The position numbers and the translations under genes are program-made. The notes under the pieces are model-generated. The model ran no database searches, was not told where the DNA came from, and was given only the letters and a program-made list of their open reading frames with translations. This document shows positions 7,522 to 24,126 of a stretch of DNA of 64,000 bases, piece by piece (position 1 is the stretch's first letter; each line of letters opens with the position of its first letter). The stretch comes from Lysobacterales bacterium. Its GTDB lineage: Bacteria > Pseudomonadota > Gammaproteobacteria > Xanthomonadales > Marinicellaceae. The stretch spans positions 62,001-126,000 of the forward strand of contig JAMOMK010000032.1 of the NCBI GenBank assembly GCA_027067055.1, read 5' to 3'.

Positions 7522-7705
7522 TGCTCAATCATAACTTATTGATATATAATAGGCAATAACGATTTTTCCGCTAACCTATAATAATAAAATCAAAAATAAT
7601 TAATCTAAATTGACAGGTTTACGAATTTCTTTTAAATTCAAATTGTTAATGAGCCGCTAACCTAAGGAGTTTTCGTGAGTGCTTTAGGGTAGCGATTGTA
7701 ATTTT
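7522..7705 (-). promoter_or_regulatory. CRISPR leader between array and cas2
   Basis: A 184-bp AT-rich gene-free segment between the first (newest) repeat and the end of cas2, where a leader belongs in this family. It should hold the pre-crRNA promoter and signals for spacer integration. An 11-bp direct repeat CCGCTAACCTA occurs at 7568-7578 and 7654-7664. A small perfect hairpin (ATTGTAA, four T, TTACAAT) at 7695-7712 overlaps the cas2 stop codon and might weakly end the cas transcript. Function of these elements is inferred from position. Confidence 0.75.
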
Positions 7706-8000: not shown

Positions 8001-9017
8001 TTATTTCACCAAAAAAGGAGGGTAATATTTGGTATCTCCTCTTAAGTGCCTTGCTAACAATAAAGCTTGTACATGTGGCAACATACCAATTGGTACTTTT
8101 TCATTAAGATATGGATGCATAATTTCCACCTGTTTTCTTTCTTGCCATGCAGTTAAAAAGACTTTTCGCCCTTTGTCGGTTAATCGAACCGCACCGCTAC
8201 TTTGTACATCAAAATCTTTTTTATTGAGTTGCTTTCTATTCAGTAGTGTCAAAACAAACCTATCTGCCCACCATGAGCGAAACTCTTCCAATAAATCTAA
8301 AGACAATGATTGCCGCCCTGGGCGGTCTTGGTGTAAAAAACCAACATAAGAATCTATGCCTACACCTTGCAATGCTGAACTGCACTCATGCGTTATTAAT
8401 GTATAGGCAAATGATAACAGTGCATTGACTTCATCGGTTGCTGGCCTGCGGTTTCTTGTTTTGAAAGTGAAATCATCATTACGTAATAAATCATTGAATA
8501 CAGCAAAATAGGTGCTGGCTGCATCGCCTTCAACGCCTAGAATATCAGGGATTGCTTGCTTGGCTTTAATCTGTCTTAGATTGACTGCTAATTTTTTTAT
8601 AGCTAGTTCTATCGTTTCACTTTTACCATGATTTCTTAACTCTCGCATCAATACTGAACGTGAATTTGCTATTTTGGCCGCTATGATTAATTTGGCAATT
8701 GATACAGATTTTTCAGTATCATCTGCCCAACGATATTGGGTACGCCGTAAAACAACATTACCAGTTTGTTTGCCCTGAACTCGGGCTAAAAACTTACCAT
8801 ATTGGGTGTAAAAAGCCAATCCCACGCCGTTTTCACCACAATGCCCCATTAAAAAAGGTGAAATAGAAACATTACCAAAACAGAAAATATTAGAAATATT
8901 GATAATAGGGAATTGACCAATTTTTTCTTTGCCATTTTTAATGACTATAGTTTCTCGCTCTTTATGCAAATAGGTTTCTTGTTTGGTTATATATAGTGTG
9001 TTGAGCATTTTTTTCAT
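8001..9017 (-). CDS. cas1: CRISPR-associated integrase Cas1 (type I-C)
   Basis: Metal-dependent integrase that inserts new spacers at the leader-proximal repeat together with Cas2. Its 338 residues match I-C Cas1 proteins. The N-terminal beta domain ('LYITKQETYLHKERETIVI') precedes the helical catalytic domain with the expected Glu ('GVEGDAAS'), His ('THECSSALQGVGID') and Asp/Glu ('LSLDLLEEFR') motifs. The start overlaps the end of cas4 by 4 bp, indicating coupling; a second ATG lies three codons further in and could be the true start. Catalytic motifs are all present, so acquisition should be possible. Confidence 0.97.
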   Translation of the reverse strand: MKKMLNTLYITKQETYLHKERETIVIKNGKEKIGQFPIINISNIFCFGNVSISPFLMGHCGENGVGLAFYTQYGKFLARVQGKQTGNVVLRRTQYRWADDTEKSVSIAKLIIAAKIANSRSVLMRELRNHGKSETIELAIKKLAVNLRQIKAKQAIPDILGVEGDAASTYFAVFNDLLRNDDFTFKTRNRRPATDEVNALLSFAYTLITHECSSALQGVGIDSYVGFLHQDRPGRQSLSLDLLEEFRSWWADRFVLTLLNRKQLNKKDFDVQSSGAVRLTDKGRKVFLTAWQERKQVEIMHPYLNEKVPIGMLPHVQALLLARHLRGDTKYYPPFLVK

Positions 9018-9658
9018 GGGATGTCCTCAAATAGGCTATTGATGTATTTTTCTGAATTATCGGTTCTCATCACATCTGGTTCACATAGATCATTAAGAGA
9101 GCAAGCTTTACATCTACTTTTTATTGGTGTTGGTGCTGGAGTAAATGAGTTAGCTAAAATCTCATGAGATTTTTGGATGAAGTCAATGGTTTTAGTACGT
9201 AAGTCATTATCCATCTCAACTACTAATCGTCGCCTAGTTGCCCAATAAAATAATGCGGCTTGTTGTATTTGTGTGTCTTTCATTTCTTCAATACACAATA
9301 CTTGAGCACACAATTGCACCTTGTCCCAATCTTCCTTTTTTGGTTTGCCACGTTTGTATTCAACAGGATAATACTTGATTGGCTTGCCATCTTGTAAATG
9401 AATTTCCAACAAATCCATTTTGCCTGTTAACTTATACTTTTCAGATTTTAAAGATACGCTACGTTCAAATCGCATATCCTTTCGGGTTTCTGATTCTTTG
9501 CTATCAACCCGCTCATGCAACAATTGCCCATGAGCGGTAAAATAGTTTTCTTCCCAAGCTTGTTCAACATGTATTAGTGCGAATTGTCGTGGACAATAGG
9601 CGTAATGCTGTAGGGCTGATATGTAGAGGTAGCGGTCGTCAAGCATTTTATCAACCAA
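9014..9658 (-). CDS. cas4: CRISPR-associated exonuclease Cas4 (type I-C)
   Basis: RecB-like nuclease with an iron-sulfur cluster, known to trim prespacers and select PAM-bearing ends for Cas1-Cas2. 214 residues. The first cluster cysteine is in '[10 protein letters not shown]' (near 22) and the rest in the C-terminal '[12 protein letters not shown]'. Nuclease motifs appear as the HERV histidine region, '[10 protein letters not shown]' (Asp) and '[12 protein letters not shown]' (Glu-x-Lys). It overlaps cas7 by 8 bp and cas1 by 4 bp. The full motif set indicates an active enzyme. Confidence 0.96.
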
Positions 9659-10505
9659 TTTTTCTGATTAGATTAACACCATCAGGCATTGAGTTATCAA
9701 TACTGACCTCATAATCATTAAAACTACGTGCGACATCAACCTCGTCTTTGCGTTGAACCTTGATTTTATCAAACAAATCTGTGGCTGAGGCGTTACCAAG
9801 CATTGAATCATGTTTAAAAATATACAAACCTCTGGCACTCATTTCACCACGACTAGCAGAACGATCATGGTCAAACATTTGTTGTAGTGATTGCCAAAAT
9901 AATTCTAAGTCATCTTCTTTGAAACCAGTTTGTTGGGCTAAATGTGCTGACACAAAACCGTGACAGCGGTAGAGACCATATGGTACGGTGAATTTTCTAC
10001 CCATTGTTCGATTTTGACCGTCTTGGCTTTCTGCTTCTTTTTCAGTTGTAACAGCCATTCGGGTAATACTGTGTTCGGATGCAATAATTGGGTCAACTGA
10101 ACGTGAAAATGTTAATTGAACAGGGCCACGCACTTGTCCTGCATTTTTACCTGTACTCATTACTGCTCCAAATGTACGTACATCGTAATAATTTTCACAC
10201 ATCCATTGCCTAGCTGCTTCAATTTTATCCCCCTTGGTTTTTTCTTTTACAGAGTCTTGCTCATGTGACGCATCTATCATATTATTCAGGACACCTTTTT
10301 CTTTAATAAATATCTTTTTATTGGTATCGGTTTGTGTCATTTGGATAAAATTTCTGACTTTTCTTTTTAAACATACATCTGTGACTAAACCCATACCAGT
10401 CTCAGCATCCATACGTGGTAAATTACCAGCATCTGGATCGCCGTTAGGGTTGCCGTCTTTTACATCGAATAATAATACAAATTCATAACGATTATTTAAG
10501 TTCAT
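9651..10505 (-). CDS. cas7: Type I-C Cascade backbone subunit Cas7 (Csd2)
   Basis: RAMP-fold protein that polymerises along the crRNA to form the I-C effector backbone. 284 residues, normal for Csd2. The start '[20 protein letters not shown]' and following '[12 protein letters not shown]' are the family signature; further matches are 'VKRKVRNFI'-type basic helix and '[12 protein letters not shown]'. The gene overlaps cas8c by 4 bp upstream and cas4 by 8 bp downstream. Together with Cas5 and Cas8c it gives a complete minimal Cascade. Confidence 0.96.
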
Positions 10506-12250
10506 TTTTCTTCTCCTTCTTTAGTTTTTTTAGTGTAAAAATCTTGTTTTTGGTGATAGTAACCAATAGCAAAAAGCCCTTGATTTTCTAGGTTCAAGTG
10601 CGATGGAAATTCAGGGATTTGAGAGAATATTTCACCAATTCTCTTTTCTGTATTTATTTTCCAACTTTGTTCTTTTAGTTTTTTAAGGTGATGTTTTGAT
10701 AATCTCATTAATGTACCAAATACAGATTTTGGTGTACAACTGGCACTACTGTAATATCTATCACCTATTGTGGCATTAATTCCTGGGTGTGAGTCTTGTT
10801 GTAATTTCTCAAGAACTGCAAATAATCTCCCAAGACTATAACCAATGCGTTTTTCTTCTTTATTTAAAGACATAGTTAATTTCCTCTGGTTGGGTTTCTG
10901 AATTTGATTTTTTCTGTTTATACAGGCTTTAATTGTACAGGCTCGGTAATAATCTACTTTTCCGAGTTCTGCCTTGATTCTTCTCAATGTAGCTTGTAAA
11001 AACGTATCAGGTAACATTGTATTTGTTAAAATAGCACGAACAACACTTGGTGCTAAGTTTGGTGGCACGTTGTCATCTTTGAATTGTAAAGCGGTATGCC
11101 TTAATAATTTCTTTAAGGATGGATAACCATAATGGTCTTGGCCTACAATCAATAAATCATCGAACCATTTTGCTATATTTTCAGCAAACTCTTTGACTGT
11201 CCCTTTTTTCCAATATGACACAACTACACGGGCAGAATTTGGAGTTAGACCAAGAACATAAAACTGTGTTTGTCCATCACTATCTATGTAAGCACCATTG
11301 TGAATGGAGTTAAAAAGAGCTTTTATTTCTCTTGTGCCTTTTTCTGGGTTATCAGGATTATCTGTGAAAATAGAGGTAAAGGTACTTTCTAATACATTCT
11401 CTTTTTCTGACCAACACATATAAGATGTTGCACCAATTCTAAATTTTGTTGCAGAATTTTTTCTCAACAAATGGTTGATTGCAGTAGTGTAATAAAAAGA
11501 AGATTCTCGACTTACAGGAAAATTAAAACCTTTATCTTTGCCATATGAGTTGTAGGCTTTATCATTGATTGATGCCAGTGGTGCTGGTTTTTGGGCTACA
11601 CCTGAGATATTATCATGCAACCTTGTTATACTAGTTTGTTCCCCTGTAATCAAGCAAATTCCATGTTTAACATCACTAGCTGGAATAGGTTGGTTTTTGA
11701 CCCATTCAATCACTTGTGGTGATTGGCAAACTAGATAAGATTTCCCTGCTAACTTAAATGCTAAGTTTGTACCATTCTTTTTTATACATTCTTGCCAATC
11801 ATCATGATTCTTAAGATTTTCAATTTCTTCAAGAGAATTTAGGAATAATGAAACAGCCTTGACTCCACTATCATTTGGTATATCATGACTAAGTATTTCA
11901 ACTAAGGATTTAAAACTTTCATACTGACGTTTTGCCGTTAATATGTCTTTTTCTGTAGGTTCTGCATCTGGCTTTGCTAATTTTGGTTGTGTTGTTATAT
12001 AGCCATAATGATCCCAAAGAATGTTAGCTGTTTCATATGATTTCCCTCCACTTCTTCCTTTTGTTTTTGGTACTCTTGCTACTTTGACAATTTTTTTCTT
12101 ATCTTCAATAGTTATATTGTGTTCTAGGTTGATAAATCTTCCATTCGAATCAATAACAATAGTATAGGGAATCCCTTTTTCCTCAAATCCAAAAGCAGGC
12201 AATTCATCCTTTTTACGGTGATAGTATTCACATAAGGCTTGTAATATCAT
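10502..12250 (-). CDS. cas8c: Type I-C Cascade large subunit Cas8c (Csd1)
   Basis: Large subunit of the I-C effector, known in the family to recognise the PAM and, through an internal product in studied systems, to supply small subunits. 582 residues fit the usual 570-620. The N-terminus '[22 protein letters not shown]' region is typical of Csd1, and a mid-protein '[22 protein letters not shown]' block and a C-terminal '[16 protein letters not shown]' end are also characteristic. ATGA overlaps connect it to cas5 and cas7. Its sequence is divergent, as is common, but context leaves little doubt. Confidence 0.95.
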
Positions 12251-12906
12251 CCTCGCACCTCCTGAGAGTTTCTTTTTGGCACTTCAATCACGCCATCTGA
12301 CATTGTGGCATTGTAAAACAATGGTTTAATATCGGATTTGTCGCTATAATCCATGTCATAAAGCATCCAGCCCAGTTCTTTGCTTACTGCAATAGGTGTT
12401 TTATTGTTGTTTTCATCTTCAATCAACTTAAAATCACAGGAAAACTCACGGCAGCCTAAGTAAGGTTGATTAAAACATTGTCCTTTTTTTGCTCGTCTTT
12501 TAAACATTTCGGCAAATTTACCTGCCGTTTCATTTACTCCTGCTTTTTCCGTCATGCTAAAACTGGCATACAAACGATAAGCTACATCTTTTAAAAATAA
12601 ACCAGCTCGTTGTTGTCGTTCTTTTTCGATAATTAAACTGGGTAATGCCCCTCCTTTCATCGCCGCACTAATATTGCGTGTAGAGAGAACCGCTCCCACT
12701 TCATTGCGGCGAATATTGACCCAATTGAATGGTTTTAATACTTCAATTTTATGAATATGCCATTGGATGGCTGGTTTCCATAAAATGGCTTCAAAAATTG
12801 CCCTAGCAGCTGACGGCGTAATGACATCATAACTTACCCGTTCAACTTTCATTTCTGGTCGGGTGAAACAAGCATAATCACCACTTACTTCTATACAAAA
12901 TCCCAT
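12247..12906 (-). CDS. cas5: Type I-C Cas5 (Cas5c/Cas5d), pre-crRNA endoribonuclease
   Basis: In type I-C, which lacks Cas6, Cas5 cuts the repeat RNA to make crRNAs and stays at the 5' handle of Cascade. 219 residues with the family opening 'IEVSGDYACFTRPEMKVERVSYDVITPSAARAI' region (motif around 5-36) and a basic stretch 'RRNEVGAVLSTRNI'. No cas6 gene is found nearby, agreeing with this role. It lies 12 bp after cas3 and overlaps cas8c by 4 bp. Confidence 0.95.
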   Translation of the reverse strand: MGFCIEVSGDYACFTRPEMKVERVSYDVITPSAARAIFEAILWKPAIQWHIHKIEVLKPFNWVNIRRNEVGAVLSTRNISAAMKGGALPSLIIEKERQQRAGLFLKDVAYRLYASFSMTEKAGVNETAGKFAEMFKRRAKKGQCFNQPYLGCREFSCDFKLIEDENNNKTPIAVSKELGWMLYDMDYSDKSDIKPLFYNATMSDGVIEVPKRNSQEVRG

Positions 12907-12918
12907 AATTCCTCCTGT

Positions 12919-15183
12919 TTAATAAACACTTTCTTGTGCGGTTAATAGTTTATCTGGTGTCTCCATTCCAAATAATTCACTATAATAACAATCTAACAGG
13001 ACAAACAGCCCTGCTTTCACATCAATACAACCATTTGCATGGCATATTTTTACTACACTTTCTGATAGGCTAATTGTGTATCGTTGTAATTTTTTATAAA
13101 CCCATTTTTGTAACGGATCTTTTTCTAATATATCCAACCATCGTTGAACTGGACTTTCTTCTTTACCCAATGGAATAAATGGTACAATTATGGATGTTCC
13201 ATTATTATCAATTAACCTGAATTTTTTTGCTGCTTCTCGAAATTGAATAGCCAAAGGTGCATCTGGACTACTTTGAGCTTTTAGTAAATCATTAATACCA
13301 TGTCTATCTTGATTGCCTTTGCTATTTAGTAGTGTGAAATATTGTCTAAAACTTTCAGGCGACAGAGGTTCTTTTAGTTTATTTGTTTCAATAAGCTCGA
13401 TGGTAATGTCTTCGCCTTGTTTTAAAAATCCAATGGTGGATGCCTGTTCAGGCTTAAACACAATGACTTTGCCGATTTTTAACTTACCTTCTCGATTACA
13501 CCTACCTGCGGATTGAGCAATAGAATCTAACCCTGCCATTGCACGATATACTACAGGGAAATCGACATCAACTCCTGCTTCGACCAATTGAGTACTGACA
13601 ACTCTAAGTGGACGTTTGTCACCTTTTCGCCTTTGCTCAAGTCTGTATTTTATTTTCTGAATAACTTCTGTGCGATGTTGGGCACACATGTTGGCAGATA
13701 AATGCAAATTATTATCGTCATCAATGAGTAATTCAAATAAATTCCTGGCATGCTTTCTGGTATTGACTATGACCAATACACAATCTTCAGTGGATATTTT
13801 CCTTGATAAATTTTCCCAAGATAATTTTGGTTCTGCATTATTCGGTAAATGCACTTTAACCCTTTTTAAGTCCATTGATAGTTGTGATGGATTGCTTACA
13901 ATTTCTCTAACATTGCTTAATCCCTTTAATAATAACTGACCAAATGTATCTTTGGATTTGGTTAATACTGGTTGTGTTGCTGTGCATAATACCCAAGTAA
14001 CACCAAAATAATCACTCATGTGTTGCATCATTTGGGTAATAGGTGCTTGGAAATCTCTCGGTATTTGTTGAGCTTCATCCAAAATAATGACACTGTTGAC
14101 AATATTGTGTAGCTTTCGGCATCTACTAGTTCGCGAGGCAAAGAGTGATTCAAATAATTGTACATTTGTGGTGACAATTAATGATGAATCCCAGTTTTCT
14201 GTCGCTAATCGTGCTTTGACATCTTCTTTTTTTGGGTCAACATCAAAATTACTGTGGTGTTCTAATACAACATCATCACCGACAAATTTTCTAAATACAT
14301 CTGCATTTTGTTCAATAATACTAGTAAAAGGTATTGCATAAATAATTCGGTCTTTATTTTGGACTCTTGCATGTTCCAATGCAAAAGCCAAGCTGGACAA
14401 TGTTTTTCCACCACCAGTTGGTACTGTTAAACTAAACATCCCTGATTTTTGTTTGGCAGCAGTTAAACACTCACTATATATTGTGTTGCGGATTTTATTA
14501 ATATCAGTTGATTGGCTACCTTTTCGCAATCTTGCCATTTCATTATTAAATCTTTCTTGAATGACAGCTAGGCTGATTGGCTTTTTTCTATACTTAGATT
14601 TTTTTTGGTTCATGTAGCTTTCAGTATCTAAAAAATCTGCATCAACTAAGCATGAAAACAATAATCGCATCCACAATGAAATGGCATCACTATTTCGGGA
14701 AATTTCAGGTAAGTCAGGGCATTTTGCATCTAATATTTCTTGTGGAATGTTTTCTCTAAGTGCTTCTTCATATTCTGCAACTCCTTCTTTTAGCCTATAA
14801 CTTAATGCTCCCCTGCCATTAACCCAATCAGGCAAACCTGCATGATGCCCTGCAATTAAATATGCAACAATATGCCCATACACAGGATTCAGTTTGTTAA
14901 TTGCAAGAATTGCACCAGCAGTTGAATGTGGTGCTCTTGTTCCGTTTTCTATATGAGCATTTTCTTTTTCATAACCAGATTGAATACGGATATAATCTTG
15001 AAATCTTTTCCGATATTTCCCTAAATCATGCCATTTACCAGTAATTTCTGCCCAATCTTCACCTATCAACCGTGCAAAACCTTTAGAAAGCTGTGCCGTT
15101 TTCATGAGATGTTCTGATAATTCGTGAACTTCTTCCCATTCGCCAGAATTATTGTTACGTGTTACATGTGCAATATATTTCAT
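12919..15183 (-). CDS. cas3: CRISPR-associated helicase-nuclease Cas3 (type I-C)
   Basis: Recruited by target-bound Cascade to unwind and degrade DNA. 754 residues with an N-terminal HD nuclease domain ('KWHDLGKYRKRF', HD at 52-53; further histidines in 'IAGHHAGLPDW') fused to an SF2 helicase: Walker A 'VPTGGGKTLSS' near 255, DEAQ box 'ILDEAQQIP' near 366, and motif VI 'IAQSAGRCNREG'. A strong ribosome site, GGAGG, lies 8-9 bases before the ATG at 15183, fixing the start. Nuclease and helicase motifs are intact. Its start overlaps the upstream unknown gene by 4 bp. Confidence 0.97.
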   Translation of the reverse strand: MKYIAHVTRNNNSGEWEEVHELSEHLMKTAQLSKGFARLIGEDWAEITGKWHDLGKYRKRFQDYIRIQSGYEKENAHIENGTRAPHSTAGAILAINKLNPVYGHIVAYLIAGHHAGLPDWVNGRGALSYRLKEGVAEYEEALRENIPQEILDAKCPDLPEISRNSDAISLWMRLLFSCLVDADFLDTESYMNQKKSKYRKKPISLAVIQERFNNEMARLRKGSQSTDINKIRNTIYSECLTAAKQKSGMFSLTVPTGGGKTLSSLAFALEHARVQNKDRIIYAIPFTSIIEQNADVFRKFVGDDVVLEHHSNFDVDPKKEDVKARLATENWDSSLIVTTNVQLFESLFASRTSRCRKLHNIVNSVIILDEAQQIPRDFQAPITQMMQHMSDYFGVTWVLCTATQPVLTKSKDTFGQLLLKGLSNVREIVSNPSQLSMDLKRVKVHLPNNAEPKLSWENLSRKISTEDCVLVIVNTRKHARNLFELLIDDDNNLHLSANMCAQHRTEVIQKIKYRLEQRRKGDKRPLRVVSTQLVEAGVDVDFPVVYRAMAGLDSIAQSAGRCNREGKLKIGKVIVFKPEQASTIGFLKQGEDITIELIETNKLKEPLSPESFRQYFTLLNSKGNQDRHGINDLLKAQSSPDAPLAIQFREAAKKFRLIDNNGTSIIVPFIPLGKEESPVQRWLDILEKDPLQKWVYKKLQRYTISLSESVVKICHANGCIDVKAGLFVLLDCYYSELFGMETPDKLLTAQESVY

Positions 15184-15764
15184 ATTAATTTACCTCCAAA
15201 ATATTTGACACAATTGCGAAACAACTTGTTTCGTAATTGGGCAACAGCTTGTTGCCCAATTTGGCTACAACTCGTTGCCAAATTATCCTGTACTGGTGGA
15301 CAAAATACATACCATTGTTTGACAACTCTCAGAATTTTATTAGGGAATCCATGAATTAAATCTGTGTTGAATTTAAGTTTAATTATCCTGTTTTTGCACT
15401 TCAACATATTTTTAACTATGGCATATTCGCCACAATAAGAACCACCAGTTAAACAGATCGAATTCGACCTGTTTGAAATAATTGTTTTTATTATTAACTG
15501 AAATGTTTTTAGATTTAAACTGTTATAAAAAACTGAATAGTAAAGAATATTTGCTCTGTTAGAGGTAAATATATTGCTAAAAACGAATGGGATGGAGATG
15601 ATCGTTGAATTATTTTTTTCTATTAAATGCAGCTTAATAGTAATTCTATTGAGTAAGTTTAAGAGGGAAAAATAAGCAACGAGGGTTACATTACCATCGT
15701 TTTTAGTAATGTATTTACCTCTACCTCTGTGGAGTATATGTTTTAAGTCAGTTATCGCTTCCAT
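15180..15764 (-). CDS. Unknown protein translationally linked to cas3
   Basis: I do not recognise this 194-residue protein. The frame is open further to a TTG at 15803, but the ATG at 15764 ('MEAITDLKHILHRGRG') looks more natural; no clear ribosome site is seen. It is rich in Ile, Asn, Ser and Leu, has several cysteines ('SICLTGGSYCGEYAIVKN' near 115), and no signal peptide or obvious helix bundle. Its TGA stop overlaps the cas3 ATG. Its last 35 codons are built from three 23-bp palindromic units, so the C-terminus may be an extension caused by repeat insertion. Such a long open frame in AT-rich DNA is unlikely by chance, but expression is unproven. Confidence 0.45.
   Translation of the reverse strand: MEAITDLKHILHRGRGKYITKNDGNVTLVAYFSLLNLLNRITIKLHLIEKNNSTIISIPFVFSNIFTSNRANILYYSVFYNSLNLKTFQLIIKTIISNRSNSICLTGGSYCGEYAIVKNMLKCKNRIIKLKFNTDLIHGFPNKILRVVKQWYVFCPPVQDNLATSCSQIGQQAVAQLRNKLFRNCVKYFGGKLI
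15212..15284. repeat. Three tandem overlapping 27-nt palindromes upstream of cas3
   Basis: Perfect or near-perfect palindromes at 15212-15238, 15235-15261 and 15258-15284 share their AATT ends, giving a 23-bp period. Centres read CAACTTGTT, CAGCTTGTTG and CAACTCGTTG. The second, arms TTGGGCAACA and TGTTGCCCAA, is perfect. Arm bases change in pairs between units, so the stems are kept. They lie 29-101 bp before the cas3 start codon on the coding strand. A diverged single relative occurs at 38976-39004. Confidence 0.8.
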
Positions 15765-15839
15765 TTTGCTAGTTTTATTTGTTAGTGGCTTGCAGTTTAA
15801 CAATGGTCATTCTCAAAACTTGAGAATGATAATTTTAAT

Positions 15840-15918
15840 TTGCGTATTTATTATAACATGGATGCACGGTTAAGTTGTTGTGCTACAATCGAATTTTCTA
15901 TATTGGGGTTCTGGTAAT
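15840..15918. mobile_element. Decayed end of a MITE copy
   Basis: GTGCTACAATCGAATTTTC followed by TATATTGGGGTTCTGG corresponds, with changes, to the right end of the complete MITE that follows (GTGCTATCATCGTACTTTC, TATATCGGGATTTGGG). The upstream GGATGCACGGTTAAG also aligns with its interior. The left half is absent or too diverged to see. It adjoins the complete copy, suggesting repeated insertion at this site. Confidence 0.5.
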
Positions 15919-15958
15919 AATAATTTTGAACTCTTTTTTAGGTCTAAATTTAAATAAA

Positions 15959-16121
15959 CCCAAATCCCGATATAGAAATGCGTTTGAGAGTGCAAGTAAC
16001 TGATGTGCATAGGAAATCAAGAAAAACTAAAGTCATCTCATTGGTGATGAAGCTTTTTCTGGGTTTTCTAGGTGCATCAAGGGCTTGTGCTATCATCGTA
16101 CTTTCTATATCGGGATTTGGG
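15959..16121 (+). mobile_element. MITE-like hairpin element, copy A (163 bp)
   Basis: Bounded by perfect 20-bp inverted repeats CCCAAATCCCGATATAGAAA. The interior is itself an imperfect palindrome, with GATGTGCATAGGAAATCAAG on one arm matching GATGCACCTAGAAAACCCAG on the other, so nearly the whole element can fold into one hairpin. Flanks are ATAAA and GTAAA, compatible with a worn 5-bp target duplication. A 160/163-identical copy lies inverted at 27819-27981. It carries no transposase, so it must be moved by an enzyme encoded elsewhere. Confidence 0.85.
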
Positions 16122-16139
16122 GTAAATGAGGTAATTATC

Positions 16140-16706
16140 ATGAAATTAATTAGTCGTTCTACACTAATGCAGGCACATGCTTTTTTGGCTGCTTTTATTT
16201 TGCCTGTTGCAATTTTATTTTTTGTGACGGGTGCTCTTTATACTTGGGGTATAAAGGGCAATTATGATGTGGCTACTCATGAATTACATCTTAGTGAGCC
16301 TATCCAAGATGACTTGGTGGAGCTTGTTACTTTAGCAAAAACAGAGTTGATTAAACAAGATAAAGGTGTGCCATCGGGTCAGGCTAAGGTTAAAAGAATT
16401 GGTTCCTCTTTTAGGCTAGAATGGACTGGTGCAAGTATGGATGTTATTTTGGAGCCAACATCACAGCCTTTGGTTGCTAAATTAGAAATCAAGCAAACAA
16501 ATTGGCATCGACAATTTGTACAATTACATAAAGCAAAAGGTGGTGATATATTTAAGGTATATGCTACGGTGTTTGCTATAGCGTTGTTGTTGTTGCTTGT
16601 TACTGGTTTTATTATGGCATGGCAAATGCCAAAGTTACGTAAGCTAACGCTAGTTTCAACATTGTTGGGCATAGCTGTGTTTATTGTCGTTGTTGCATAT
16701 AGTTAA
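16140..16706 (+). CDS. PepSY-associated inner-membrane protein
   Basis: 188 residues: one membrane helix at about 12-34 ('AFLAAFILPVAILFFVTGAL'), a periplasmic PepSY-like stretch, then two more helices at about 145-188. 'NWHRQFVQLHKAKGG' before the second helix is typical of the PepSY-associated membrane family, which often accompanies siderophore or metal uptake or respiratory functions; no such partner is adjacent. The frame is open upstream to 15978, but that part is the MITE; GAGG sits eight bases before the ATG at 16140, which I take as the start. Precise role unknown. Confidence 0.82.
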   Translation: MKLISRSTLMQAHAFLAAFILPVAILFFVTGALYTWGIKGNYDVATHELHLSEPIQDDLVELVTLAKTELIKQDKGVPSGQAKVKRIGSSFRLEWTGASMDVILEPTSQPLVAKLEIKQTNWHRQFVQLHKAKGGDIFKVYATVFAIALLLLLVTGFIMAWQMPKLRKLTLVSTLLGIAVFIVVVAYS

Positions 16707-16761
16707 TGCTGTTTTGTTGGCAAAAAGACACTGTTTATTCTTCTGAGTTTATTTGGTTAGG

Positions 16762-16838
16762 TTCCTGCCTTCGCAGGAATGACGGAGCTGTGTGGAATGA
16801 TGGAGCTGTGTGGAATGATGGAGTTGTGTGGGAATGAC
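16762..16838. repeat. REP-like hairpin with tandem 18-bp repeats (left of GIY-YIG gene)
   Basis: The hairpin TTCCTGC-CTTC-GCAGGAA at 16762-16779 is followed by three repeats of about 18 bp (units such as GGAATGATGGAGCTGTGT) ending GGAATGAC. A matching hairpin plus tandem block lies at 17229-17329 in the same orientation. This is the dispersed 'CTTCGCAGGAATGAC' REP-like family of many proteobacteria. The remainder of 16707-16926 holds only the inverted hairpin at 16880-16907. Confidence 0.8.
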
Positions 16839-16879
16839 TTTAGTGGAAAAAATATTGCATTATATGATTATAAACAAAT

Positions 16880-17256
16880 CCCGTCTTTCCTGCGTAGGCA
16901 GGAATCTCCTTGGGAGTCGCAGTTCATTATAAAATATCTTCGTATAAATCTTTCCAGTCAGGGTTTAGTTCTTCTATAAGTCTTATTTTCCAATTCCGTT
17001 TCCATACTTTTAATTGTTTTTCTCTTAATATTGCATCTTCCATAGTTTCATGGACTTCAAAGTAAACCAATTGATGACAGTTATACTTTCTAGAAAACCC
17101 TTCAACAGATTTTTCTTTATGTTGCCAAATTCGTTGTTGTAGATGACTTGTTACGCCGATGTACAATACTCCATTTGGTTTGTTTGTGATAATGTAAATT
17201 GCTGGTTTTTTCATGGTTTTATTTTGTTAGATTCCTGCCTTCGCAGGAATGACGGG
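16880..17256. mobile_element. GIY-YIG gene enclosed by 28-bp inverted REP-like ends
   Basis: The left end at 16880-16907 and the right end at 17229-17256 are inverted copies that agree at 26 of 28 positions. Each contains a TTCCTGC/GCAGGAA hairpin and has CCCGTC at its outer edge. Between them lies only the GIY-YIG gene. The layout resembles a compact mobile unit, comparable in form to REP elements flanking a RAYT transposase gene but with a different nuclease. Mobility is inferred; a target duplication was not found. Confidence 0.55.
16927..17214 (-). CDS. GIY-YIG family nuclease (small, UvrC-like domain only)
   Basis: 95-residue stand-alone GIY-YIG domain of the UPF0213/YhbQ-like group. 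'AIYIITNKPNGVLYIGVTS' supplies the two Tyr motifs (here YII and YIG), followed by the conserved Arg ('LQQRIWQHK') and Glu ('MEDAILREKQLKVWKR'). Such domains cut DNA with one metal ion, but the role of these stand-alone proteins is poorly known. The gene sits alone within inverted REP-like ends, and its 3' end is 20 bp from the left end. Active-site residues look intact. Confidence 0.9.
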   Translation of the reverse strand: MKKPAIYIITNKPNGVLYIGVTSHLQQRIWQHKEKSVEGFSRKYNCHQLVYFEVHETMEDAILREKQLKVWKRNWKIRLIEELNPDWKDLYEDIL

Positions 17257-17329
17257 ATTGTGTGGGAATGACGGGATTGTGTGGGAATGACGGAGCTGTG
17301 TGGGAGTGACGGGGTTGTTTTGGCATGAC
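17229..17329. repeat. REP-like hairpin with tandem 19-bp repeats (right of GIY-YIG gene)
   Basis: The hairpin TTCCTGC-CTTC-GCAGGAA at 17232-17249 is followed by about four repeats of GGAATGACGGGATTGTGTG, the last two diverged, ending GGCATGAC. It fills the gap between the GIY-YIG gene and the oxidoreductase stop. Same family and direction as the block at 16762-16838. Confidence 0.8.
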
Positions 17330-17332
17330 AAT

Positions 17333-19471
17333 CTAAACCTTCTCTATCCTCACCGGAACTCCAGACAAGACTGCGTTGCCTGAGATTTCGTCGATTTGGT
17401 TTTCGTCCATGAGGATATTAATATTAACACCGGCATTGGCTTGGGCGGTGCTGATTTTCATATCGGCAAATGTGTGTCCCCAGCCGTGTGGGATGCTGAT
17501 GATGCCTTGTTTGATGTCATCGGTTATCTTCACTGGTATGGTGATAGTTGCAGTTGCGGAGGTGACGGTGATTTCATCTGCATTTTGGAGTTTATGAATT
17601 TCTGCATCTGCTGTGTTGATTAAGGCAAGGCATCGGGCTTTGCCTTTGATGAGGCGGTAGGAGTTGTGCATCCACGAGTTGTTGGTGCGTGGATCACGTC
17701 TGCCAATAAGCTGCATGGGATAAGCTGAATCTTGATGGTTTTGTTTAAATACTGATTTCACTCGCGCTATGTCGGCTTTTATTTCTTCGGGCAATAAATG
17801 AATTTGTTGGTCTTTGTTTAATAAACGTTCTGGCATACATGGTTGCAATGCACCTAAGTCGATGCCGTGTTTGGATTGGATGACTTTTTCGAGACCAAGG
17901 TTTTTGTAAGGTCCATGTTTTAGTCCATCATCAATTATGCCACGTTCGCCTTTTTTGTTGATGTGGCGTTTGGTTAGCCATGTTTTGATTTGGCTTTTGA
18001 TGCCTTTTGGTTGCATTCGCGCCCATAGTTCGACAAAGATTTCTCTGTCACTGCGTTGTTCTTTGCTGGGTGCAAATAAGGTTTCGCTGTATTTGACGGT
18101 GTTTTGTATTGCCAGTGTGTGAAATGCCACGTTGTAGTGGTCACGCTCTAGGCTTGAGGTGGGTGGCAAGATGATATTGGCATGGCGTGAGGATTCGTTG
18201 ATGTAAAAGTCGATAGAAACCATGTAATCAAGGCTGGCTAAGGCTTTATCCATTTTATTGCCATTGGGTGTGCTTAGCACTGGATTACCTGAGTTGATTA
18301 TCAGCATTTTTATTTGCCCTTCGCCTTGTGTCATTATTTCGTCGGCTAAGACACTTACTGGCAGTTCGCCTGCGAAACTGGGTAGTCCTTTAAGACGTGA
18401 ATGGTATTTGCCAAAGGTTTTGCGATTTTTCTGTTTGCGGGCAGGTTCGATAATGTCAAATGCGGGTTTGGTGAACATAACACCACCTGCTTTATCAAAA
18501 TTACCTGTGACCATGTTGAATATATTGCCCAGCCATTGAGTGAATGTGCCAAATTTTTGGGTGGATGCACCAAAACGGGTGTAACAACAGGCTGTTTTGG
18601 CTGTACAAAAATCAAGGGCAAGTTGCTGGGTGACTTCGGCTTTTATGCCTGTTATTTTTGCAACAGACTTTGGTGTGTAGTCTTTTACCAACTCTTTTAT
18701 GTCGGCTAATCCATGGGTAAAATCTTTGACATGCCCCAGTGTTTCGCGGTTATTTTTGAATACTTCATTGAGCATCGCCAATAACAAATACACATCGGCT
18801 GCTGGGTTAATGTAAATATGTTGGTCAGCCAGTTTGGAGGTTTCGGTAAATCGAGGATCAACATTAATGACCTGCCCTCCTCTTTTTTGTATGTCTTTTA
18901 GTCGTTGTGCCACTTTTGGTGCGGTCATCATTGAACCATTGGAAACCACTGGATTAGCTCCGATTATTAACACACAATCAGTTCTATCCAAATCAGGTAC
19001 CGGCACCAGTAATTGATGCCCATACAGCAATTGTGCCGCTAATTGATCAGCGAGTTGGTCAACTGAGGTGGCACTGTAACGGTTTTTGCTTTTCAGGGTG
19101 CGTGAAAACAGCGGCATAAATAGCATTGCGCCCATATTGTGTACACCTGGGTTGCCTGAATATGTCGCCACGGCATCTTTGCCGTGTTGTTTTTGGATGC
19201 GCTTGATATTGTCTGTTACTTCATCAAAAGCTTGCTTCCATGAGATGGTTTGCCACCCTTCTTTGGTCTTTTTTTGCGGTTGTTTAAGGCGTTCTTTATC
19301 GTAATAGACATCTTGCAATGCGACACCTTTTGGACAGATATGCCCTTTGCTTAATGGATCTTTTTTATCGCCTTTTATGGAGAGTATTTTGTTGCCTTGG
19401 TATTTTATTTCGAGTCCGCAAGTGGCTTCGCAAACATTGCATGCGCGGTAATGAGTTTTGGTTTCTGTCAT
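17333..19471 (-). CDS. Molybdopterin-dependent oxidoreductase with 4Fe-4S site
   Basis: DMSO-reductase/formate-dehydrogenase superfamily enzyme, 712 residues. The 4Fe-4S domain is at the N-terminus with cysteines at 11, 14, 18 and 46 ('ACNVCEATC', 'GHICPKG'). Molybdopterin domains follow ('VLIIGANPVVSNGSMMTAP', 'QVINVDPRFTETSKLADQHI'), and a C-terminal cofactor-binding domain has 'GRRDPRTNNSWMHNSYRLIKG'. There is no Tat signal, so it should be cytoplasmic. No electron-transfer or membrane subunits are adjacent. The actual substrate is unknown. It lies 26 bp after a hydrolase gene on the same strand; the window's moa genes would serve its cofactor. Confidence 0.88.
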   Translation of the reverse strand: MTETKTHYRACNVCEATCGLEIKYQGNKILSIKGDKKDPLSKGHICPKGVALQDVYYDKERLKQPQKKTKEGWQTISWKQAFDEVTDNIKRIQKQHGKDAVATYSGNPGVHNMGAMLFMPLFSRTLKSKNRYSATSVDQLADQLAAQLLYGHQLLVPVPDLDRTDCVLIIGANPVVSNGSMMTAPKVAQRLKDIQKRGGQVINVDPRFTETSKLADQHIYINPAADVYLLLAMLNEVFKNNRETLGHVKDFTHGLADIKELVKDYTPKSVAKITGIKAEVTQQLALDFCTAKTACCYTRFGASTQKFGTFTQWLGNIFNMVTGNFDKAGGVMFTKPAFDIIEPARKQKNRKTFGKYHSRLKGLPSFAGELPVSVLADEIMTQGEGQIKMLIINSGNPVLSTPNGNKMDKALASLDYMVSIDFYINESSRHANIILPPTSSLERDHYNVAFHTLAIQNTVKYSETLFAPSKEQRSDREIFVELWARMQPKGIKSQIKTWLTKRHINKKGERGIIDDGLKHGPYKNLGLEKVIQSKHGIDLGALQPCMPERLLNKDQQIHLLPEEIKADIARVKSVFKQNHQDSAYPMQLIGRRDPRTNNSWMHNSYRLIKGKARCLALINTADAEIHKLQNADEITVTSATATITIPVKITDDIKQGIISIPHGWGHTFADMKISTAQANAGVNINILMDENQIDEISGNAVLSGVPVRIEKV

Positions 19472-19497
19472 GTTATATTTCTATTGTTGTTTTTGCA

Positions 19498-20247
19498 TCA
19501 GATAAACTTTTGAACCCACGCATCAATGATACTTGTTGCGTATTTAATGTCAGAATTTCGTGACAATAAATGATTGGCATCATCAAGGCTTACAAAACTC
19601 TTGGGATGTTGTGCTTTGGTGTATATTTTTTCGGCTTCTTCAATATCCACACCGCCATCTTTTGGTGAGTGCATGACCAATAAAGCTTTATTCAATTTAC
19701 GAATGTGGACGGTGTTTTGGTTAGTCAAATCATCGATAAATTGTTTTTTAATAATGAAATCACGACCAGCTAGTTGGATTTTCGCTTGACCTTTTGACTG
19801 GATTTCATCCATAGATGATGAAAACAGATGAGTAATATGCTCGGTATGAGCCGGTGATGACAAGCACACAACCGCTTTGGATTCTGCTATGGCTGATGCA
19901 GCTTTTAAAATGGCAGTTCCACCTAATGAGTGCCCGATTAGTAACTGTGGAGCTTGAAAATTATCACGCATAAACCCAGCAGCCGCAATCAAGTCTGCGA
20001 CATTTGTACTAAAGTTTGTATCAGAAAAATCACCTTCACTTTCCCCTAGTCCTGTGTAATCAAAGCGAAAAACAGCATAGCCTAGTTTGACCATTTCTCG
20101 TGATATTCGAGAAGATGCGGTGAAGTTTTTACCGCAGGTAAAACAGTGAGCATAAAGCACATAAGCTTTTGGTTTGTCTTTTGGCAATGCTAAAACACCC
20201 GACAAATCATTTTTATGCCCTTTAAAACTATATTTTTTTTTCATCAT
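19498..20247 (-). CDS. Alpha/beta hydrolase
   Basis: 249-residue serine hydrolase of the YitV/serine-aminopeptidase-like group. 'LYAHCFTCGKNFTASSRIS' forms the oxyanion region, 'LLIGHSLGGTAILKAA' carries the nucleophile serine near 107, and Asp ('SPKDGGVD') and His ('DDANHLLSRN') complete a plausible triad. No signal peptide, so cytoplasmic. It is 26 bp upstream of the molybdopterin oxidoreductase and probably co-transcribed; such hydrolases are often fused to OsmC domains, but none is present here. Natural substrate unknown. Confidence 0.85.
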   Translation of the reverse strand: MMKKKYSFKGHKNDLSGVLALPKDKPKAYVLYAHCFTCGKNFTASSRISREMVKLGYAVFRFDYTGLGESEGDFSDTNFSTNVADLIAAAGFMRDNFQAPQLLIGHSLGGTAILKAASAIAESKAVVCLSSPAHTEHITHLFSSSMDEIQSKGQAKIQLAGRDFIIKKQFIDDLTNQNTVHIRKLNKALLVMHSPKDGGVDIEEAEKIYTKAQHPKSFVSLDDANHLLSRNSDIKYATSIIDAWVQKFI

Positions 20248-20328
20248 TTATCTCATCTTTATTAGAACAATTTTTAGTCTAATTTATTAAAATTTTTTTA
20301 ACTCAATCCATGGACTGTGCAAAAGTTT

Positions 20329-22263
20329 CTAGTATCCTGCATTAAGTAGTCTATCAATAAATATTTCCCAGTCAATAAATTTTCTAAACCCAATAATATT
20401 TATGCTTGGTATACCACGTCCTTGTATTAAGGTGTAGTTGTCTTGTTTATTATCAACACCACTCATTTGGCATATTGAGTTACGTAATTTACAACCAAAA
20501 CCAATTTTCTTATACCTAAAATAATCAAAAAACCGCAAAAAACTACGCGATAACGCACCTTGTATGCCACCAATGGAAGAAATATTATCAATGGCTCGTT
20601 GCGAAATGGTTTGTTTAACTCCTTTTGTTTTGACGGATTCTATATGGGCATCGAGTCTATCGGCTTTCCAGTTGGTAATTCGCAGACCTTTTACATAGCC
20701 ATTAATAAGCCCTGTTATTTCTCCAAAATCATAAGTGCTGGTTATTTGTTGCAAATTGAGATTGTTGAAAACAATGTTTCCTGCCATAACCGGTGCAATA
20801 CCAAACAAGCGTTCTATTGATAGGTTTTCCACTTGCATTTGTCCATCAAACACATCTATGTCTAACACACCATCAAAAGTGATACTGTGTCCAACCTTTT
20901 TCATTCCAGGTATCAACCCTGACAGGGTTCCATTCATGCTAGGCCATCCCATTTTTTCTGTGATTAAAGCTATTGAAATGGGTTTAATTTCGCCACTAAA
21001 GTCTATTGAAATCTCAGGTTCAAATATTTTATCTAACACCAGTTTATTGATTAATAAACTGCCATCAAATAGCGGTATTGCTGTCTTATCTTCTATCCAT
21101 AATTGCTGTCCTTGAGTGTATAATTCCAACTCCGAGGTTTGGATTGGCATTCCTGCTAACAGTAATTCATCCCATTGAAATTTTGATAAGAGCTTTTCTC
21201 CATCTTTTTGCCAATGCAGCTGTGTGTTCAAGTCACTAATGTTTATCTTTTTTGACTCGATTGCCATAAAGACTTCAGACAAATTCAATTCAAGTGCCGT
21301 AATGGATTGCTTATCCAATGTTATTGAACCTCGGGCTTGCCCTATTACCTCCAAATCTTCAATGCCAAGTATTTCTAAATAAGAAGCTAAAAATCCTTGA
21401 TGCAAAGTTTTAATTTCTTTTATTAAGAAGTTCATAGTGATATTTTCAAAATCATCATCAGGGCTTATCAAATCAATAAACACTTCATTTTTTGAAGATA
21501 TATTTGCTTTAATATTATGCACTTCAAAATTATTATCAATGTCGAATTGACTTCTAATAGTGACAGGATAGTCATCAAATAAGACATAGATATCTTGTGC
21601 CAGGGCTTCACCGCGACTTATTGAGCTTGAGTTGTTTACGCTAAAACCCTCACTCATCTGAGCAAGAGAAAGAGTTCCTGTAATATCAGCCTCAGCCATA
21701 ACATAGTCTCCCACAAGACCTTCGTAATTTACTGATGAAAGTTGATAGTTTGTTGTCACTAAAAGTCGATGACTAAAATCGACTGTAATTTGGGCATTTA
21801 CTATTGTTGACAACTCTCCATTTAAATCCATAATCACGGGCAAAGTATTGGACAGTTCTTTGAAATCTATATCCTTTAATGTAATTTCCAGACTGTCTTT
21901 TTGTACAGAATTTGAATGGATGAAAATGTTTTTATTGGTATTCACCAATATTAGATTCCATTGCTGTTGAGATAAATTCACCCATCCAGAAATCCCATAG
22001 CTATAATTTTTACCATCGACTGTTGCTGTTATAACACCCTGCTTACACTGATGGACTGGATATATCTCTGTTGATGATTTGCACTGGTAGTTGATATTTT
22101 TAATCGGGCTTTCAAAAAATGGTGTTTTGAGTGTTTCCACCATAATTTGTAACACTTTATTTTCTTGTGTAATTGACAAATCTTGTACCTGCCACTGTTG
22201 TGCACACAACGAAAAAGGCAATGCCAATAAAATAACAAGTAAAATGAATGAATTAAAACGCAT
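20329..22263 (-). CDS. AsmA/YdbH-like periplasmic protein
   Basis: 644 residues with an N-terminal signal peptide ('FILLVILLALPFSLCAQQ'). The body is rich in beta strands and in repeating short amphipathic segments, and the C-terminal half ('FDGSLLINKL', 'GVLDIDVFDGQMQVENL', 'INGYVKGLRITNWKADRLDAHIES') resembles the YdbH/dicarboxylate-transport domain of the AsmA-like superfamily. Known relatives (YdbH, TamB, YhdP) form bridges for phospholipid movement between membranes. I infer an envelope-lipid role, not demonstrated. It reads divergently from the REC-HPt gene. Confidence 0.65.
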   Translation of the reverse strand: MRFNSFILLVILLALPFSLCAQQWQVQDLSITQENKVLQIMVETLKTPFFESPIKNINYQCKSSTEIYPVHQCKQGVITATVDGKNYSYGISGWVNLSQQQWNLILVNTNKNIFIHSNSVQKDSLEITLKDIDFKELSNTLPVIMDLNGELSTIVNAQITVDFSHRLLVTTNYQLSSVNYEGLVGDYVMAEADITGTLSLAQMSEGFSVNNSSSISRGEALAQDIYVLFDDYPVTIRSQFDIDNNFEVHNIKANISSKNEVFIDLISPDDDFENITMNFLIKEIKTLHQGFLASYLEILGIEDLEVIGQARGSITLDKQSITALELNLSEVFMAIESKKINISDLNTQLHWQKDGEKLLSKFQWDELLLAGMPIQTSELELYTQGQQLWIEDKTAIPLFDGSLLINKLVLDKIFEPEISIDFSGEIKPISIALITEKMGWPSMNGTLSGLIPGMKKVGHSITFDGVLDIDVFDGQMQVENLSIERLFGIAPVMAGNIVFNNLNLQQITSTYDFGEITGLINGYVKGLRITNWKADRLDAHIESVKTKGVKQTISQRAIDNISSIGGIQGALSRSFLRFFDYFRYKKIGFGCKLRNSICQMSGVDNKQDNYTLIQGRGIPSINIIGFRKFIDWEIFIDRLLNAGY

Positions 22264-22334
22264 CTTTTGAATTTTAACTCAATTAGCGTTAAAATTTAGT
22301 AATTAATATTTTTAAATTGCAAAGGATGCACAAA

Positions 22335-23021
22335 ATGGCCAATAAACTCTTAATCTTAGTTGTTGATGATAATATTATTAATCGTCAGTATTTTTCCATG
22401 TCTTTAAAAAAGTCAGGTTTTGATGTCATCGCTGTTGAAAGTGGTCAACTAGCGATTGAACAGGCAATGACTAAAAAGTTCGATGTTATATTAATGGACA
22501 TTCGCATGCCTGAAATGGATGGGTATGAATGCACACGGCGCATCCGAAATATTCCATTACAAGATAAAACACCTATTTATGCGACCTCTGCTGAAGAACT
22601 ATTTAAAGAATATTCAGATTTATTTACTGGTTTTTTATTAAAACCGATAAGCCCGAAACAACTCAACGACACGGTGAGTCAACATATTCAAGATAAAGCT
22701 ATGGTTTTCAACCAAGAAAAGGCTTTGAAATTTGCTTACAATGACAACGAAATCGTTAAGACATTAGCTAATCTATTCATTAATGAGCTTCCAAAACAGC
22801 TTCAATCATTATCTGAATTTTCTGACAATAATGAAGTTCAAAAGTGTCTAGATTTAGTACATAAAATAAAGGGGTCATGCAAAGCCTGTGGCGCACAACA
22901 AATTGAAGGATTATTAGATGGCTTTTCCACTCTTTGTCATGCCAAAGAGTCAAATGCGTTACACCTTAAACTGGACGAATTGCAAGTGGCACTTAACACT
23001 TATAAAAACTCTATTTTATGA
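22335..23021 (+). CDS. Response regulator with C-terminal HPt domain
   Basis: 228 residues. The REC domain spans about 3-120 with 'VDDNIINRQYF' (acidic pair), the phospho-acceptor Asp in 'VILMDIRMPEMDGYECTRRI', Thr/Ser in 'IYATSAEE' and Lys in 'GFLLKPISPKQ'. A C-terminal HPt module has the phospho-histidine in 'VHKIKGSCKACGA'. There is no DNA-binding domain, so it would work as a phosphorelay intermediate, like the tail of a hybrid kinase. Of three in-frame starts I chose the ATG at 22335, eight bases after AAAGGA. It converges on the PP2C gene with an 11-bp overlap of their 3' ends. Confidence 0.88.
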   Translation: MANKLLILVVDDNIINRQYFSMSLKKSGFDVIAVESGQLAIEQAMTKKFDVILMDIRMPEMDGYECTRRIRNIPLQDKTPIYATSAEELFKEYSDLFTGFLLKPISPKQLNDTVSQHIQDKAMVFNQEKALKFAYNDNEIVKTLANLFINELPKQLQSLSEFSDNNEVQKCLDLVHKIKGSCKACGAQQIEGLLDGFSTLCHAKESNALHLKLDELQVALNTYKNSIL

Positions 23022-24018
23022 GTGAAGCAAGAATCACTGCAAGGAAGGCAATCAGGACAAACATGAACCAATATGTTTTAGGTATCTTTGAAGGTGCTTT
23101 TGGTATTTTCTTTAATCTTTTTGTTGCCGCTACATCTAACAAGCTTCTGTCATCATGACTCATGTCTTTAAAAGTAGTTTGATCAATGAGTTCGGTATCT
23201 GTTTCTTGTGGACCAGCGACAATCGAATTTAGTTTTGTAGGTGAAGCTCCAACCACAGCGCCTGTTTGAGAATCAAAGCTTCGATAAATTTTTGGTTTTA
23301 TAACATCTTCAGAAGTAAATTCTTCAATCGAAGGAGCCAGAGTCATTAAAGTAATATTATCAGAGCCTCCTTTATCAACTGCACGTTGAACAAGATTATT
23401 GGTTAATTCTTCCAATGATTGATGGTTTTGCAACTGCTTAATAAGGCCTTTTTCTTTAATAACCCCAAATAAGCCATCTGTGCAAATCAGTAGCTGCTGA
23501 TTCTTTTGAATGGTTCCTTTATTACTATGAATTTCTATGTCTTTTCGCACTATTCCTAATGCTTGAGAAATAACATTCCTATCAGGGTGTGTGTCCAAGT
23601 CTTCTAACGATATATGACCATTGTCAAATAATATTTCAACATAAGAGTCATCCCTAGTAAGCAAATGTAACTGTCCATCCCATAAATAGACACGAGAATC
23701 TCCAACCCAGGCAATTTCATAATTCTCATCTTCAAACAACACCGCAACAATAGTCGTTGCCATGCCTTTTTTCTTATCATCTATTTTAACTTCATCAATA
23801 AGCGCTTGATGAGCTAGGTGAATTGCTGATTGCAAGGATGCACCTGATTGAATGGCACGAAGAATTGATTTACAAGCCAATTGACTGGCAACTTCTCCCT
23901 TTTCTAATCCGCCAACACCATCAGCCACGACATAAAGACCAAGCTGGCTATCAACAAGATAGCTGTCTTCGTTTATTTTCCTTTTACCAATGTGGGTTTG
24001 TGTAAAAAAATTAATCAT
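23011..24018 (-). CDS. PP2C-family Ser/Thr phosphatase with C-terminal membrane anchor
   Basis: 335 residues. The PP2C fold occupies about 1-240: 'GKRKINEDSYLVDS', metal site 'VVADGVGGLEKGEVAS', 'IAWVGDSRVYLWDG', 'LLICTDGLFGV' and 'GGSDNITLMTL'. A proline-poor linker of some 80 residues leads to a single C-terminal helix ('YWFMFVLIAFLAVILASLI'), so the enzyme is tail-anchored facing the cytoplasm. This form resembles the Stp phosphatases of type VI secretion or kinase signalling, but no kinase or T6SS gene is here. A good CRP-type site lies about 65-80 bp upstream of its start. Confidence 0.9.
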   Translation of the reverse strand: MINFFTQTHIGKRKINEDSYLVDSQLGLYVVADGVGGLEKGEVASQLACKSILRAIQSGASLQSAIHLAHQALIDEVKIDDKKKGMATTIVAVLFEDENYEIAWVGDSRVYLWDGQLHLLTRDDSYVEILFDNGHISLEDLDTHPDRNVISQALGIVRKDIEIHSNKGTIQKNQQLLICTDGLFGVIKEKGLIKQLQNHQSLEELTNNLVQRAVDKGGSDNITLMTLAPSIEEFTSEDVIKPKIYRSFDSQTGAVVGASPTKLNSIVAGPQETDTELIDQTTFKDMSHDDRSLLDVAATKRLKKIPKAPSKIPKTYWFMFVLIAFLAVILASLIK

Positions 24019-24082
24019 AATTTATTAATTTTAGTTGAGTCACAACCTTTCACCTAGTAAATTAAGCATATTAACTTTTTTT

Positions 24083-24098
24083 TGTGAGATTCATCACA
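24083..24098. promoter_or_regulatory. CRP-type binding site upstream of the PP2C gene
   Basis: TGTGA-GATTCA-TCACA, a perfect match to the TGTGA-N6-TCACA CRP consensus; the symmetry extends to TTTGTGA and TCACAAA. It lies about 65 bp upstream of the phosphatase ATG and inside the short gap after the M20 gene. Binding by a CRP homologue is inferred. Confidence 0.6.
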
Positions 24099-24126
24099 AA
24101 TTCTTGATCTCGCAACTTGCGCAAGG

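Follow-up and report, generated by a model that had tools for sequence, protein, structure and literature searches.

Strand-polarised hairpins in a new MITE family of a Lysobacterales genome, with a candidate IS1380-family partner

Two nearly identical 163-bp hairpins, inverted relative to each other, lie in a 64,000-nucleotide stretch of a Lysobacterales genome (GenBank assembly GCA_027067055.1, contig JAMOMK010000032.1, positions 62,001 to 126,000; hereafter the window, with positions counted from its first letter). They raise the questions of whether such an element belongs to a mobile family, which transposase could have moved it, and why its two arms differ from each other and yet are conserved between the copies. 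An earlier note on the same DNA, made from the letters alone, had proposed a new MITE family that moved recently, had left the transposase unknown, and had suggested a structured RNA or dual-use sequence.

A non-autonomous 163-bp family and its candidate partner

Copy A occupies positions 15959 to 16121 on the plus strand and copy B positions 27819 to 27981 on the minus strand, the strand given in each case being the one that folds better, which in A is also the G-U-rich one. The pair described in the earlier note was reproduced in its coordinates and in its divergence, with 3 of 163 positions differing between the two full-length copies. Both are bounded by CCCAAATCCCGATATAGAAA and its complement, which form perfect 20-bp terminal inverted repeats (TIRs; in A, 15959 to 15978 on the plus strand and 16102 to 16121 on the minus strand). 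AATAA precedes and follows copy B (27814 to 27818 and 27982 to 27986), as had been noted, and A has ATAAA on the left and GTAAA on the right, a target duplication with one mismatch. The imperfect palindrome was likewise confirmed, each copy having 68-nt arms that are 72% complementary. The plus strand of A folds at −83.7 kcal/mol, compared with −36.0 ± 3.6 kcal/mol for 200 shuffled sequences (z = −13.3), and the minus strand at −55.5 kcal/mol (z = −8.4), so that both strands exceed the shuffles, the plus strand by more, and the hairpin of A is far beyond chance. The earlier count of two copies was correct for this pair and an underestimate for the window, in which a third, older copy on the plus strand (40244 to 40380, the end being approximate) retains a recognizable left end and arms with a decayed right end; dozens more are found elsewhere in the genome. 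What is probably the right end of yet another copy, now decayed, was seen by eye to the left of A (around 15866 to 15912, plus strand).

A genome-wide search, as the earlier note had proposed, covered the genome of the window (3.42 Mb in 145 contigs). BLAST placed the family at a minimum of 40 sites, 40 of 114 candidates having been scored, and at least 31 of them are near full-length; one place is split over two rows, and several of those that are not near full-length sit at contig ends. The near full-length copies (at least 31) are 92 to 100% identical, which is better evidence for the recent movement claimed earlier than the A/B pair itself. Sequences matching the TIR with at most two mismatches occur at 119 places (61 forward and 58 reverse, insertion sequence [IS] ends included), compared with none for the reversed TIR used as a control. 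Among 60 relatives searched, the family was matched in 9 of the 10 genomes of the same genus and in none of the 50 outside it, and a covariance model recovered it in 10 of the 11 genus genomes, that of the window counted. Of 369 genomes of the class, a sample without other members of the genus, only the window's own contains the exact TIR pattern. This pattern was also found in one viral contig and in at least 78 stretches of the genome contigs searched, with Nitrospirae and Deltaproteobacteria among them. Hairpins of other sequence bounded by the same TIR pattern occur in Nitrospirae, Deltaproteobacteria, and a further bacterium. A divergent full copy with a 5-bp duplication (L097, 2226 to 2388) lies on a contig labelled Cyclobacteriaceae, for which misbinning is suspected.

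A set of 110 copies with distinct contexts, 36 of them from the window's genome, was assembled from the fetched loci. Most are 163 bp long with 20-bp TIRs, which is too short for a transposase gene. Both ends are usable in 107 copies; of these, 64 have identical 5-bp flanks and another 21 have flanks that differ at one base, compared with 3.9% identity under random pairing. The insertion target is AT-rich and near-palindromic (about TTTnnnTATTAnnnAA), with an asymmetric core (TATTA in 13 and TAATA in 7, read along the element). When the 107 joined flanks were searched against the fetched loci, four rows crossed the junction (L007/L194, L170/L096, and two of L166). The first is a clear orthologous empty site, in which a locus of the window's genome (L007) aligns with one of the relative G009 (L194) at 79% identity over 140 columns; the second (L170 versus L096) is a gapped case of the same kind. 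The earlier note had held that copies at identical sites in all relatives, with no empty sites, would speak against mobility; for the family this is not the case, G009 lacking the L007 copy at the corresponding site. For A and B, the relatives yielded no orthologous site, the flanks not being contiguous among the matches listed; about 110 bp to the left of A (15727 to 15837) match three relatives at 76 to 79% identity without further flank. Collectively, the 20-bp TIRs, 5-bp duplications, empty site, and many copies identify the element as a non-autonomous DNA transposon (MITE) of a new family.

Many single TIRs in the window's genome are close to the end of a contig, which is where collapsed repeats should leave them. 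Several of them belong to an IS with the left end CCCTAATCCCGATATAGAAA and with right ends that match the MITE TIR exactly or nearly. One complete copy of this IS, 1575 bp long, is present in the same genome (L163, 1401 to 2975). Each of its ends has one mismatch to the MITE TIR, and TAGAA flanks it on both sides, so that the one complete IS copy shares the 5-bp duplication length with the MITE. Against NCBIfam, the only match of its transposase pieces at an E value of 0.001 was the IS1380-family model NF033539 (E values of 5e-43 and 2e-45), with scores of 147 and 155 bits for these partial proteins, below the cut-off of 180; against Pfam, a piece matched PF13701 above the cut-off (E value of 1e-17). 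The reading frame of the complete copy contains one stop, and this copy may be inactive; several other transposase pieces in the genome run into contig ends. The transposase was matched in 3 of the 11 genus genomes (the window's own and two remnants), an absence elsewhere that means little because a multi-copy IS is easily lost from such assemblies. Outside the 20-bp ends, a search for homology of the MITE body to the IS gave nothing significant (p = 0.21 to 0.83), and the MITE differs from the IS in this respect and in carrying no transposase. The 1575-bp element, probably of the IS1380 family, is likely the driver of the MITE, judging from the ends and the duplication length. The transposase that had been listed as unknown thus has a good candidate, whose driving role is inferred.

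One strand of the hairpin folds better in every copy examined

The difference between the two strands of A in folding energy was the key to the analysis of polarity. The homologous strand is the better-folding one in each of the 110 copies, by a mean of 24.2 kcal/mol, and it carries 8.8 G-U pairs compared with 1.7 on the other strand. The mean absolute difference in G-U pairs is 7.1 in the MITE copies, compared with 1.6 (range, 0 to 4) in a control set of nine hairpins from other phyla that are bounded by the same TIR and whose strands differ by a mean of 7.3 kcal/mol. In an alignment (A1) of 28 divergent copies, the representatives of 65 at 93% identity, 92.8% of the cells are paired, compared with 38 to 46% when the pairing is slid. 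Covariation was found at 25 pairs that changed on both sides (144 cells versus 55.2 after shuffling, 0/500); the structure itself had been built on 27 of these 28 sequences, which favours it. Tandem U-G/G-U pairs are kept in 26 and 27 of the 28 divergent copies. A search of Rfam over positions 15500 to 28500 of the window (E values up to 1) returned no match on the element and one sub-threshold match at 20310 to 20416. A rough scan for an internal promoter found none conserved (mean best scores of 6.2 on the plus strand and 5.0 on the minus strand, 6.5 for shuffled sequences).

Changes were placed on trees of the 110 copies (FastTree and IQ-TREE) by parsimony with random tie-breaking. We counted single changes that turn a Watson-Crick pair into G-U or A-C, with pairs defined either by the RNA structure or by a strand-neutral register. 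Strand-symmetric drift would be expected to produce G-U as often as A-C. On internal branches, the inner arms gave G-U to A-C ratios of 36:6 with the RNA structure and of 33:5 or 35:6 with the neutral register (p below 1e-5 for each of the two trees and two pairings). On short tips, the ratios ranged from 10:7 to 23:13 and were not significant. Long tips gave 51:41 with RNA pairing (not significant) and 40:19 and 41:19 with neutral pairing (p = 0.009 and 0.006). Tips differed from internal branches with Fisher p values of 0.0008 (RNA pairing) and 0.02 to 0.03 (neutral), and tips in tandem gene contexts gave 26:6 with neutral pairing. The inner pairs of 30 young copies from the window's genome, compared with their consensus, hold 16 G-U and 1 A-C changes, in a per-copy count that scores a shared variant repeatedly. 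We read the tree counts as strong selection in the spreading lineages and as weaker, uncertain selection on single copies; a restriction to spreading lineages is not clean, given the G-U excess on long tips under neutral pairing, on tips in tandem contexts, and among the 30 young copies. The structured or dual-use sequence suggested by the earlier note is strongly supported by folding, covariation, and tree counts, and in a sharper form, with one particular strand favoured.

What the favoured fold may serve

The most likely mobilizing activity is that of the candidate IS1380-family transposase, on the basis of the near-identical ends, the equal duplication length, and the empty site. It would recognize the 20-bp MITE ends and place the element in AT-rich targets (about TTTnnnTATTAnnnAA), duplicating 5 bp on insertion. 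Between the ends, the hairpin would be under selection for its fold on one strand, such that changes from a Watson-Crick to a wobble (G-U) pair would be kept on the favoured strand and the mirror A-C changes lost. This effect appears clearest in lineages making new copies and weaker in single copies, according to the tree counts, in which the long tips are mixed. The strand in its folded, single-stranded state, probably as a transcript, would matter for the propagation of the element or the survival of its source copies, and probably not for the adjacent host gene. For example, by folding on itself a transcript may shield the element from read-through or translation and thereby make it tolerable. 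We give a probability of roughly 55% to this combined reading, an IS1380-moved MITE with the fold of one strand selected for the element's own propagation or survival.

The nearest element in kind is bcr1 of the Bacillus cereus group, a MITE-like repeat of similar size that makes 5-bp duplications and carries compensatory changes. It differs from the present family in sequence and host. In the accessible portions of two reports, bcr1 is tabulated at 147 and 167 bp with a conserved structure (PMC2267715) and is often placed in untranslated or intergenic parts of transcripts (PMC3446304); those portions mention no strand polarity for bcr1. The former also points out that either strand will usually fold, unless the structure depends on G-U pairs (PMC2267715). 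Drawings of bacterial MITEs usually show an RNA hairpin, and the question of whether and at which level the fold is selected is mostly left open in the literature consulted. The TIR core string CCCGATATAGAA was not found in the literature searched. No account of strand-polarised MITE hairpins was recognized in titles and abstract openings of work on IS1380 MITEs and on the structure of bacterial MITEs and repeats. Within that scope, the polarity is new among structured bacterial MITEs, hairpin MITE transcripts themselves having been described already. Here the two strands were separated by means of divergent copies, strand-neutral pairing, a TIR control, and hairpin controls from other phyla, and the signal is strongest in spreading lineages. 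Defined mutants could therefore test whether the fold matters to the transposon or to the host, in a new MITE family that comes with a candidate transposase.

The favoured strand could act as DNA, forming a single-stranded hairpin during transposition, replication, or uptake in which G-T is tolerated and A-C is not, with no RNA involved. With DNA folding parameters, the polarity persists in 109 of the 110 copies (mean, 8.5 kcal/mol), so that the polarity does not prove RNA and does not separate it from single-stranded DNA. REPINs with their RAYTs offer a precedent, since the accessible part of the report on them (PMC3116915) proposes the hairpin as an intermediate, and they share with the MITE a hairpin as the spreading unit and compensatory changes. 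In contrast to the REPIN/RAYT system, the partner that shares its ends with the MITE encodes a DDE-type transposase (PF13701), probably of the IS1380 kind, rather than a single-strand enzyme of the RAYT kind, and both make 5-bp duplications. The copies also occur in both orientations to genes, against which orientation was scored, so replication alone would probably fix no strand of the element. We regard this DNA account as unlikely, although it deserves to be kept in view.

A use by the host at the RNA level would have copies in untranslated regions serving as processing, stability, or termination signals, with the host keeping the fold. The accessible parts of two papers describe ERIC and Correia/NEMIS repeats of about 100 to 200 bp that have TIRs and whose transcripts are depicted as long stem-loops, and report effects on mRNA, which for ERIC depend on orientation (PMC2229807 and PMC10969869); TA is listed at the Correia termini (PMC2229807). 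The MITE shares with them the size class, the TIRs, and the long stem-loops, and differs in its ends, in its IS1380-type partner, and in having no sense bias to genes. With genes called by a simple 100-aa ORF rule, 79 copies lie between two genes that are each no more than 400 bp away, and among these tandem antisense contexts (24) and tandem sense contexts (21) reveal no sense bias. Gene ends do abut many of the 110 copies, with stop codons within 10 bp of the right end in 25 and of the left end in 10. Genes within 100 bp are antisense to the favoured strand in 74 cases and sense in 45, and the stop-codon excess lies on the antisense side; the asymmetric target core, with TAA on the other strand, probably accounts for both excesses. 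The G-U excess on tips in tandem contexts would fit a host role, but it is similar whether the context is sense (11:2) or antisense (15:4). Host use is, on this evidence, rather improbable.

Mutation without selection could in principle produce the wobbles through a one-strand bias toward C-to-T and A-to-G changes, with arm-to-arm copying keeping the arms alike. In two copies of genome G003 (L076 and L242), one arm seems to be a copy of the other, so that part of each element is an almost perfect palindrome. Such homogenization can add covariation without selection, yet it would not favour G-U above A-C. Many G-U pairs can also arise from a G+T-rich strand by itself, as they do in stretches around 16.2 to 18.6 kb, which are mostly coding. 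The TIR pairs, in contrast, are unbiased on internal branches (8:4 to 8:7), and unpaired columns on these branches hold 28 C-T plus A-G changes versus 23 G-A plus T-C changes, which argues against a G+T-rich strand as the cause of the excess. The occurrence of copies in both orientations to genes also speaks against a mutational origin. We therefore consider a purely mutational origin very unlikely. A coding constraint, with the element as an insertable peptide like the Rickettsia palindromic elements (105 to 146 bp, palindromic, with long stem-loops, in the accessible part of PMC2229807), has in its favour that frame 2 is often open on both strands, being so on the plus strand in 61 of the 110 copies, that 12 of the 110 overlap an ORF called by the 100-aa rule, and that 163 + 5 = 168 is a multiple of three, so that insertion plus duplication keeps the reading frame, but it is scarcely credible, as changes on internal branches (1.73, 2.61, and 1.78 per column by codon position) are not concentrated at third positions, and coding cannot favour G-U over A-C.

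A second hairpin family and neighbouring features

A copy of a second, unrelated hairpin family, with the ends GAGGTA...TACCTC, lies on the plus strand at 15558 to 15728. It folds at −74.4 kcal/mol with 10 G-U pairs on the plus strand, compared with −45.2 kcal/mol and 1 G-U pair on the minus strand. All 12 relatives fetched (L263 to L274; 8 from genome G006, 3 from G007, and 1 from G009) fold better on the corresponding strand, and G-U pairs are more numerous there in 11, with one tie. The second family is thus also strand-polarised by folding energy. Its G-U to A-C counts are 80:13 with the plus-strand structure, 13:21 with the minus-strand structure, and 13:9 for pairs in both (the window copy being entered twice), and because they depend on the strand from which the structure is taken, support for polarity comes from the energies only.

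At least two unrelated hairpin families of the same genus with the same kind of polarity allow a broader and more tentative proposal, that a MITE of a DDE transposase spreads by the fold of one strand of its body, as RNA or single-stranded DNA, and not by its ends alone. We consider this possible but rather doubtful; if it is right, such families would all need a fold of this kind to succeed in these hosts. The reading of the 163-bp MITE as an IS1380-moved element with a fold selected for its own propagation or survival is the narrower one set out above.

Several further features were recorded. In the window's genome, a hairpin at about 1540 to 1704 of L042 (contig C10, ending at 8203) is an apparent chimera, in which a half of the CCC family is joined near the apex to a half of the GAGGT family, an arrangement that would result if two hairpins were severed at the tip and then joined to each other. 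In L041 (1467 to 1613; contig C7), the octamer GTACGATG stands beside a TIR in about nine tandem repeats, and several contig ends begin with the TIR, GTACGATG, and then another repeat, which may be an IS that targets the octamer. Within the window, a strong hairpin at 54041 to 54230 (−72.3 and −64.6 kcal/mol) has four G-U pairs per strand and no G-U polarity. Two 48-nt copies (90% identity) of a repeat with CCTGCCTTCGCAGGAATGACGG lie at 16748 to 16795 and 17218 to 17265. Two very large ORFs at 28078 to 36046 contain many repeats at a spacing of 75 nt, and the first of them matches DUF285 (PF03382) in six stretches. A CRISPR array at 5489 to 7550, with 31 repeat copies listed and the unit GTTTCAATCCACGCGCTCGTGAAGAGCGCGAC, is followed by a run of minus-strand ORFs (about 8001 to 15183), of which that at 12919 to 15183 is Cas3-like.
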